Assembly (NCBI GenBank): GCA_005222965.1
Contig: NJBG01000001.1
Location: forward strand, 737,533-801,532
Source of the DNA: Candidatus Woesearchaeota archaeon B3_Woes
GTDB taxonomy: Archaea > Nanobdellota > Nanobdellia > Woesearchaeales > B3-WOES
Length of the DNA: 64,000 bases
Direction of reading: 5' to 3'
In this document: positions 54,857-56,754 of the stretch, piece by piece
How the letters are laid out: each line of letters opens with the position of its first letter
Position numbering within the stretch: the first letter of the stretch is position 1
Program-made: the position numbers and the translations under genes
Notes under the pieces: model-generated
The model's database searches: none
What the model was told of the DNA's origin: nothing
What the model saw: only the letters and a program-made list of their open reading frames with translations

Positions 54857-55132
54857 TTACAGTCCGAAACTATCAGAGAACTCTTTAATTCTTTCAAATT
54901 CTAATAAGAACTCATAACCTTTATCAGTTATTGCAAATACTTTTTTATCTTTTTTCATCTGCTCTTCAACCATCTCTTTTTCAATTAACTCAGTAAGATA
55001 AACTTTCATTTTAGAATGAGATAAATTGGATTTGTACAACAAATGAGTTGGCTTTATTTGGCCGCCTTTATTTTTTATTGAATTAAGCATGTCATTGATG
55101 ATTTCTAATTTTCCTCTTCTTTTTTCACTCAT
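54857..55132 (-). CDS. Winged-helix transcriptional regulator (HTH_45-like)
   Basis: The 91-residue protein has the arrangement of small archaeal wHTH regulators: IINDMLNSIKNKGGQIKPTH, LLYKSNLSHSKMKVYLTELI as the recognition region, and a wing plus C-terminal helix (AITDKGYEFLLEF). It overlaps the upstream multi-TM gene by 4 nt, so it probably regulates or is co-translated with it. Confidence 0.82.
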   Translation of the reverse strand: MSEKRRGKLEIINDMLNSIKNKGGQIKPTHLLYKSNLSHSKMKVYLTELIEKEMVEEQMKKDKKVFAITDKGYEFLLEFERIKEFSDSFGL

Positions 55133-55857
55133 TTTACAAGCTTAAAATTATTTGGTTTTTTTCTAAGTACAGATATAAAAGGCACAAGCAGAAATAAAAA
55201 CCCTAATAATTGAATCACCTCAGCTATTACATAAACTATTTCAAAATATATTACAAACACAAAAAAAGCATGGCTTATTAACAAAATAGCAAAAGCAATT
55301 GCAACCTTTTTTGCATTTTTAGATTTAACCTCTTTAACATTCTTAAAATAAGACAGAGTAATAAGACTAAGCATAGCAAATGTAGTAACATAAAATAATT
55401 GGTAATGAATAACACCCAACCAAGTAGCCACCAAAACAAAATACAGTAACATAGCAATAACTCTTTTATTATCCCATGTAAGCTTTGATACTATGAAAAA
55501 CAGTATCATAAATCCAAGAAGTGTCAAAAATATATACAATAAGAAAGCAACACCATTTATTTTACTTAAAGTTAAAGCACTAAATGTTGTTTGTACTGCC
55601 TGTCCTATTACAGATTCTCTAATTGGAGGAGTATATATAGCAAAAGTACCAGCTACTTTTGCAGCAAACGCCAAAGTTAATGAAAGAAAAGCAGTACTAA
55701 AATACAAATATCTATGCTCAGAAGTTAATTTATAACATTTATAGCTGTAATATACCAATAAACCACATACAACTATTCCAATTAACTCAATAATAGAATC
55801 AAACCCATAAAACCAGCTTGGGCTGAACACAAAAGATGGTAAACCATAAGGTAACAT
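55129..55857 (-). CDS. Polytopic membrane protein (about seven TM helices)
   Basis: The 242-residue protein has about seven hydrophobic helices (for example IIELIGIVVCGLLVYYSY, LYFSTAFLSLTLAFAA, VIAMLLYFVLVATWLG). No known motif is visible. It is coupled with the wHTH gene by overlap, a pairing often seen in archaea for signal-responsive membrane sensors, but a sensing role is only inferred. Confidence 0.7.
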   Translation of the reverse strand: MLPYGLPSFVFSPSWFYGFDSIIELIGIVVCGLLVYYSYKCYKLTSEHRYLYFSTAFLSLTLAFAAKVAGTFAIYTPPIRESVIGQAVQTTFSALTLSKINGVAFLLYIFLTLLGFMILFFIVSKLTWDNKRVIAMLLYFVLVATWLGVIHYQLFYVTTFAMLSLITLSYFKNVKEVKSKNAKKVAIAFAILLISHAFFVFVIYFEIVYVIAEVIQLLGFLFLLVPFISVLRKKPNNFKLVK

Positions 55858-55937
55858 GTGTAGAATATGTAAAAATCCCTTTATAAATTTTGTGTATTTT
55901 TGTTCTTTACTGACCCTTCATAATGGTTAATAAAGAC

Positions 55938-56060
55938 CTATGTTATACTATACATAGAAAACACAACCCTCCGTGTGTTTGCTTTTAATTTTAGATAACA
56001 AAGAGCAAGTCAACCCAACACCTCCGGCTTGTTCTTTTAGTTCTTTTTTAAGCTTCTTTT
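55938..56060 (+). ncRNA. Candidate structured RNA with three hairpins and CCUCC loops
   Basis: Three inverted repeats follow each other: CTATGT/ACATAG (55938-55957); AAACACA/TGTGTTT (55959-55980) with an 8-nt loop ACCCTCCG; and AAAGAGCAAG/CTTGTTCTTT (56000-56037, one G.U pair) with an 18-nt loop containing CACCTCCGG. A U-rich run follows (from about 56035). The two C-rich loops can pair with GGAGG/GGTG Shine-Dalgarno sequences. It lies in a 261-bp intergenic stretch between a divergent gene pair. No expression evidence exists. Confidence 0.4.
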
Positions 56061-56118
56061 AATTCTAAACTTCTTTTATTTGAAAAAATTTATAAAGCAA
56101 TTAATATACTTTAAAATT

Positions 56119-56754
56119 ATGGTGGGGGATAATACAGAAAATTTAGAGCAAATTTTTAACTTACTAAATCAAGCTGGGAAATTAAAAACAACATTAAGAT
56201 TTAGTGAACTAGATGAGAATTCTTTAAGAGATTCTAGTGCTGAACATTCCTGGAGACTCGCTTTAATGGTTTTTGTTGTTGCAGATAAATTGAAATTAGC
56301 TATAAATGTTGAGCATGCATTAAAGCTTGCCATAATCCATGATATTGCAGAATCTATAACAGGAGATGTTGATTCAAGGCTTGTGTATGATGGTAAAATT
56401 ACAAAAGAGGAAAAAAAGAAAGCAGAAGAAAAAGCAATAAAAGAGATTAGTAAACTCTTCTATGGAAAAGAAATCTTTGATTTATGGAAAGAATATGAAG
56501 AAAGCTCTACAAAAGAATCAAGGTATATAAAAGCCCTTGATAAAATTGAAACATTAATCCATCTTATTGAAATGGGTATGAAAATAGGCCCAAAAGTTTA
56601 TGATATTCCTGAAATGATAACTCACTATGCTGATAAATCAGTTAATAACTTTCCAGAACTTACAAGCATGTTAAAAATAGTTAAAAATAAACTAAAGAAA
56701 GAATTTCAAAAAAACAACATCCCTTGGAAAGAAGAATATGATAAATTAATTTAA
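56119..56754 (+). CDS. HD-domain phosphohydrolase (5'-deoxynucleotidase-like)
   Basis: ATG 56119 is chosen because TTTATAAA (56090-56097) lies about 26 nt before it; an upstream TTG at 56080 would start within the promoter. The 211-residue protein has the HD signature: His in SSAEHSWRLAL (near 43), HD in IIHDIAESITGD (74-75), and a later Asp in ALDKIETLIHL. This is the YfbR/HDDC2-like pattern of metal-dependent nucleotidases. It converges with the Rad50 gene. Confidence 0.85.
   Translation: MVGDNTENLEQIFNLLNQAGKLKTTLRFSELDENSLRDSSAEHSWRLALMVFVVADKLKLAINVEHALKLAIIHDIAESITGDVDSRLVYDGKITKEEKKKAEEKAIKEISKLFYGKEIFDLWKEYEESSTKESRYIKALDKIETLIHLIEMGMKIGPKVYDIPEMITHYADKSVNNFPELTSMLKIVKNKLKKEFQKNNIPWKEEYDKLI

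Follow-up and report, generated by a model that had tools for sequence, protein, structure and literature searches.

The window, that is, the whole stretch of 64,000 nucleotides analysed here, comes from a 1.02-Mb genome of four contigs, whose 16S rRNA matches the archaeal small-subunit model over its full length. Since this model alone also responds in bacteria, the archaeal reading relies as well on the presence of TATA boxes with leaderless starts and of a protein of the Sso10a family. A gap of 261 bp (55858-56118) separates here two divergent genes, coding for a membrane protein on the minus strand and for an HD-domain protein on the plus strand (Table 1). The first-pass annotation of this DNA describes the gap as otherwise empty; the median gap in the stretch is 23 bp, and 14 of its 93 gaps reach at least 200 bp.

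The membrane protein lacks matches in Pfam and NCBIfam, and protein searches detect relatives of it in 189 of the 336 genomes of the order. The next gene in its operon encodes the 91-residue winged-helix protein, a possible regulator. Both the membrane-protein gene and the HD gene look leaderless, because the near edge of a TATA box, TTTATAAA, lies 23 nt from each ATG (at 56089-56096 for the HD gene).

Table 1. Features in and around the intergenic gap (positions refer to the window).
Feature	Position	Strand	Remarks
Winged-helix protein, 91 aa, Sso10a family	54857-55132	-	NCBIfam NF053610.1, 62.2 bits (cut-off 60); Pfam HTH_45
Divergent membrane protein, 242 aa	55129-55857	-	ATG at 55857; anchor of synteny
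TATA box TTTATAAA of membrane-protein gene	55880-55887	-	3' edge 23 nt ahead of ATG; invariant in 11/11 loci of alignment A4
Predicted small-RNA promoter, TTCATAATGG-TTAATAAA	55917-55934	+	TATA-like box at 55927-55934
First hairpin of the earlier annotation	55938-55957	+	Folds weakly; between promoter and predicted start; not conserved
Proposed small RNA, ~93 nt	55957-56049	+	Both ends predicted; z -3.2 for 55955-56050
Hairpin A, AAACACA-ACCCUCCG-UGUGUUU	55959-55980	+	Loop exactly ACCCUCCG; anti-SD element ACCCUCC
Hairpin B, 12-bp stem, loop AACCCAACACCUCC	56000-56037	+	CACCUCC as in 16S tail; covariation on 11 loci
U-rich 3' end, probable archaeal terminator (predicted)	56033-56061	+	T6 at 56044-56049
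HD-domain protein	56119-56754	+	Pfam HD_3; ATG at 56119

The gap had been annotated as holding three consecutive hairpins, two of them with CCUCC in their loops, in a candidate sRNA directed against Shine-Dalgarno (SD) sites. All three are predicted on the plus strand, where the 123-bp region folds with a minimum free energy of -28.4 kcal/mol (z -4.7, none of 200 dinucleotide shuffles being as good), against a z of -0.4 for the minus strand; taken singly, their z values are -2.4, -2.65 and -4.8, from first to third. The first one is nonetheless judged to lie outside the RNA, since none of the ten syntenic relatives described below has an equivalent of it and it is located just upstream of the predicted start. 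For this start, the third TATA box of the gap was given the same 23-nt distance that separates box and start in the two neighbouring genes; this leaves out the first hairpin and makes the RNA begin with hairpin A, while the 3' end was placed at the U-run. Elsewhere in the window, the promoter motif is matched only with 3 mismatches or more, and the U-rich end already noted earlier is present as a T6, relatives also displaying a U-run after their last hairpin. A free-standing RNA of this extent, transcribed away from the membrane-protein gene, is probable.

The CCUCC motif is indeed found in two loops, ACCCUCCG and AACCCAACACCUCC, the GG formerly counted in the loop of the third hairpin being paired. 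The agreement of CACCTCC with the 16S tail also holds for the genome itself, whose 16S ends in GGATCACCTCC followed by TTTTTA. In most relatives the anti-SD sequence of element A is ACACCUCC, versus ACCCUCC in the window. CACCTCC and ACCCTCC occur once each on the plus strand of the window, and two CCTCC separated by a spacer are found at 25 places in the genome, equal to the reversed control (13 and 12 each); thus, two nearby CCUCC are not unusual alone, their structure and conservation being what is unusual. No paralogues of the RNA were detected in this genome at the thresholds used, and a mobile element was discarded, the locus being single copy. Just behind the 16S gene of the same genome (L239, 1443-1563) lies a tRNA-Ala-like gene, for which ARAGORN gave no match, with seemingly two insertions, in the anticodon loop and in the T-loop, possibly two archaeal tRNA introns.

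Relatives identified through synteny

A plain nucleotide search with the 123-bp region in 60 relatives returned U-run or chance matches only, and a covariance model with the window copy as its only sequence yielded, in 352 genomes, seven weak matches beyond its own locus (six genomes), none of them with both loops. True relatives escaped both searches, given the divergence of the window copy and the false first hairpin included in the model. The downstream HD gene was also tried as an anchor and rejected, none of the four relative loci read having the arrangement; the HD-protein search of the genome contigs gave three bacterial loci only, and no linkage of this gene to the RNA was found in relatives.

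Searching with the membrane protein against the 336 genomes of the order provided nine matches at 59-64% identity, all in family f10, and one at 41% in G001, the other genome of the window's own family. The upstream side was read in these ten loci and in two further ones, L088 and L091, where the layout is absent. All ten syntenic loci, from ten other genomes, carry the TATA box of the membrane gene, the spacer, TTCATAA, TTAATAAA, the C-rich elements and the hairpins. When aligned with the window (11 loci, alignment A4), TTTATAA and TTAATAAA are invariant, and every locus has CACCUC in at least one of element A and hairpin B; it is altered in hairpin B of L085 (ACCCUC) and L092 (ACACCUU), and in element A of the window, L082, L084 and L086.

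A lack of conserved stems in relatives had been set beforehand as refuting the annotated RNA, but position, promoter, CACCUC element and main stem turned out to be kept in the 11 syntenic loci. In hairpin B, 92.3% of 143 cells hold standard pairs, compared with 33.8-49.7% when the partner is slid by 1-3 columns, and both sides have changed in 5 of 13 pairs (shuffled mean 2.0; 8 of 500 shuffles as high), row L092 being out of register in the alignment used for these counts. Pair counts from alignment A6 look stronger and were left unused, this alignment having been fitted to the model and including two antisense rows. The locus, its conservation and the covariation of hairpin B are thereby directly supported. 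Element A forms a stem of at least 6 bp in six of the 11 loci, its main constant being its position, 26-37 nt behind the TATA box; because the stem is weak and the position constant, a role as an unpaired 5' seed is possible. A third hairpin, whose loop shows CCUC or CCCCU, is present in four loci of f10 (L079, L080, L081 and L084). A small peptide was rejected: frames of at least 15 codons are present in the 11 loci, but their positions differ.

An RNA-only profile of the ten relatives, built without the window, missed the window copy when run on 104 kb (top overlapping match 4.9 bits, E 2.4), and the same profile extended with the promoter block finds it with an E-value of 9e-21. The stem arms read AGAGCAAG and CUUGUUCU in the window, and AGAGCAAG and CUUGCUCU in L084. 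The window copy is therefore read as a divergent member, its placement resting on synteny, promoter, layout and stem.

The divergent promoters (55880-55934 in the window) form an inverted repeat, TTTATAA...TTCATAA versus TTCATAA...TTAATAAA, with a conserved TAGTTCT-like spacer, which is a possible operator; as the promoters mirror each other, a regulator common to both is possible. Such mirroring, in which TTTATAA pairs with TTAATAAA, together with a conservation that is higher in the upstream block than in the RNA part, would also suit a constraint at the DNA level only, the block being a divergent promoter and operator and the hairpins chance or terminator by-products. This explanation is very unlikely, considering the covariation found in hairpin B and in the f38 hairpin presented below. 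The comparison argues instead for a conserved structured RNA, which very probably exists.

The same loop on other stems across the order

A model comprising A and B (R2), run on 352 genomes, recovered the 11 known loci together with weak matches; 19 of the latter loci were read and only that of G058 was kept, where two tandem copies of the same loop sit on a different stem. G-rich hairpins (GGGGGG stretches) also occur in this long gap of G058 (L150, 1080-1615), upstream of both CACCUC hairpins. In G201 (L144, 1501-1589; R2 E 2e-5), a similar stem presents a C-rich CUCCCCC without CACCUC.

A hairpin-only model (R3), built from 13 sequences including two of G058 and run on the 336 genomes of the order, gave matches at E <= 0.3 in 95 of them, many by chance. 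A loop close to UUU(U)nnACACCUCUUUU was found on unrelated but paired stems in four more families, f38, f58, f53 and f71. The CACCUC hairpin is recorded in f1 (the window; the B loop of G001 reads ACACCUU), f10 (eight of the nine syntenic loci, G158 and a second place in G172), f58 (G058, G277 and G278, as tandem pairs), f38 (G287 to G293, two places in G279, and G283), f53 (G053) and f71 (G238). For members outside the training set, per-genome E-values range from 2e-5 (G278) to 0.08 (second place of G172), the single cases of f53 and f71 and the second places being weaker candidates than the groups. Eight loci with R3 matches lacking a CACCUC hairpin were dropped (L176, L179, L181, L182, L183, L185, L187 and L192), and 20 further matches were fetched, five kept (L195, L196, L200, L209 and L212) and 15 dropped, a count that covers the loci read. 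In a phylum-wide sample of 371 genomes, the hairpin was present in two of eight new loci (L227 in G397 and L230 in G365), both outside the order and regarded as candidate members. Neither the window nor eight relatives gave an Rfam match at gathering score.

Further families, too, contain hairpins that covary under this loop. In f38, one 18-nt loop with a single variable position is common to nine loci, and among 10 inner pairs 5 have changed on both sides (98.6% paired over 7 distinct rows). Among the 26 tabulated hairpins, all 234 inner cells pair, versus a mean of 57% with permuted 3' arms, a comparison that is descriptive only, the hairpins having been partly chosen for pairing. The relatives' loops are mostly ACACCUCUUU, those of the window being ACCCUCC and CACCUCC. 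It is directly supported that several families keep the loop while the stems vary, since between families the loop core is 95% identical and the arms 34%, and this near invariance again speaks against the DNA-only explanation, in whose favour counts one model match, L202 in G294, rejected as plainly the antisense of a real SD site.

The f38 hairpin was seen behind a group II chaperonin-like gene, named by reading its sequence, in the three loci read (L214, L221 and L191), and a chaperonin-like gene also lies ~1 kb from the RNA in f10 locus L081, which may point to a common ancestry or to a stress context.

Were the hairpins the leader or the 3' end of a neighbour gene, acting in cis on that gene only, one would expect arrangements such as that of the G053 hairpin (L175), between two same-orientation genes and ~20 nt ahead of an AAGGTG site, or the location of the f38 hairpin 100-275 nt behind the chaperonin-like gene in three loci read. 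At the window, on the contrary, the next plus-strand gene has its own TATA box and no leader, and the gene on the other side is divergent. The divergent operon of membrane protein and winged-helix protein stays with the RNA across relatives (the 91-aa ORF is listed in eight of nine f10 loci) while the far-side gene varies, which argues that the RNA is not the leader of the downstream gene. A cis element is consequently considered quite improbable.

Predicted loop pairing with ribosome-binding sites and proposed function

The SD sites regarded earlier as used in the window are real, their number being limited: a match of at least 6 nt precedes 8 of 94 called genes, versus 0.8% of 362 internal ATGs, and GAGGT, AGGTG or GGTGA is found upstream of 15 of 100 ORFs, with AAAAAGAGGTGTTTTATG and AAAAAAGAGGTGAAATATG as examples. 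That the loop of the relatives complements genuine ribosome-binding sites of these archaea, AAAAAGAGGUG, is directly supported: the sequence UUUUGACACCUCUUUUU is complementary both to GAGGUGU and to the A-rich stretch preceding it. This A-rich complement would explain the U-run of the relatives' loop.

Pairing was evaluated from duplex energies only, comparing the five strongest duplexes among 94 local start regions with those of 300 shuffled loops. All 300 shuffles were outdone by the relatives' loop, 297 by that of f38 and 288 by that of f58; for window loops A and B, 87 and 170 of 300 shuffles were as strong. Averaged over the 94 start regions, none of the three loops tried was significant, an outcome to be expected where SD sites precede only a few genes. 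The genome itself offers 5 places with long complementarity to loop B, as many as the reversed control (5), so that no such target stands out. An archaeal sRNA with anti-SD loops, as first annotated, stands as the best, partly supported reading, with conserved stems, although its first hairpin falls outside it and the window loops pair with local ribosome-binding sites no better than shuffles.

Considering the sequence comparisons presented here, it is rather likely that the RNA is a trans-acting translational repressor of ~93 nt that captures SD sites, its gene being equipped with a TATA promoter of its own and its end formed by a U-run. The anti-SD sequence would be presented both in the 5'-proximal element and in the loop of the strong hairpin. 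This loop, which in relatives reads UUU(U)nnACACCUCUUUU(U) and complements A-rich-GAGGUG ribosome-binding sites, would make the first contact with the SD region of SD-dependent mRNAs and block ribosome binding, whereas the many mRNAs without SD would escape; because many genes here lack an SD, repression would be selective. We infer that the RNA is transcribed, that its loop is exposed in the cell and that it has mRNA targets which it represses selectively.

Proteins are known to act at the 16S 3' end, such as the KH protein aDim2/Pno1 and the nuclease Nob1. The loops might accordingly be decoys that mimic the 3' end of (pre-)16S rRNA, CACCUCC plus a U-rich stretch, and titrate proteins that bind or cut there, so that 16S maturation, and not mRNAs, would be regulated. 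The likeness between the 16S tail with its 3' flank, CACCTCCTTTTTA, and the relatives' loop, CACCUCUUUUU, does exceed the anti-SD core. Nonetheless, the second C of CCUCC is U in 23 of the 26 tabulated loops, the 5' part of the loop (UUUUG) mismatches GGAUCACC, and complementarity to A-rich ribosome-binding sites accounts for the same U-run, making a protein decoy unlikely.

The repressor might also be of wider reach, a reading that we put forward only tentatively: an old RNA family of an archaeal order, whose loop complements the whole ribosome-binding-site consensus (A-run, GAGGUG and spacer) and stays nearly invariant while stems and positions turn over, could be a general anti-ribosome-binding-site RNA that damps SD-led mRNAs as a class versus leaderless ones.

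Comparison with known systems and significance

Among known RNAs, the alphaproteobacterial alpha-r14 sRNAs (NfeR1, cuckoo) are described as carrying several hairpins with an unpaired anti-SD motif on stems highly different in sequence, their redundant motifs silencing mRNAs at the translation start; for NfeR1 in Sinorhizobium, loop-SD pairing that blocks ribosome binding is reported (PMC10746234). The archaeal RNA is alike in its repeated hairpins, unpaired anti-SD motif and variable stems, the window itself having two hairpins with two different motifs. It differs in the motif, (A)CACCUC with flanking U-runs instead of CCUCCUCCC, in its archaeal host, and in that silencing has been demonstrated in the bacteria, while we infer it here from sequence. 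No sequence match and no Rfam match links the two (the Rfam copy may not hold that family), and nothing indicates common descent.

In archaea, sRNA162 of Methanosarcina mazei is a trans-acting sRNA that masks a ribosome-binding site, pairing through a 39-nt single-stranded linker between stem-loops, with relatives reported only in two Methanosarcina species (PMC3510493). On that description, its pairing region is an unpaired linker, whereas the anti-SD sequences lie here in hairpin loops, in an RNA with no Rfam match. C-rich unpaired motifs act on G-rich SD sites also in the staphylococcal C-rich sRNAs. Similar motifs binding such sites are described for AbcR1 and AbcR2 (PMC10746234). Both groups are bacterial and have other motifs, with no detected relation to the archaeal RNA. 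As for C/D or H/ACA guide RNAs, reading of the sequence against the box consensus gave no full box set, and no Rfam guide-RNA family matched at gathering score. Searching the full text of open PMC papers brought up no archaeal sRNA with repeated anti-SD loops, and the small RNA appears to be undescribed so far.

The hairpins described here provide a structured RNA family that can be searched for in archaeal metatranscriptomes. If the proposed function is confirmed, the design seen in alphaproteobacteria would also be present in archaea of very small genome size, and mutating the loop would be a simple way to test separate control of SD-led and leaderless translation. Should the tentative reading as a general anti-ribosome-binding-site RNA be true, the family would constitute a switch between the two archaeal modes of initiation.
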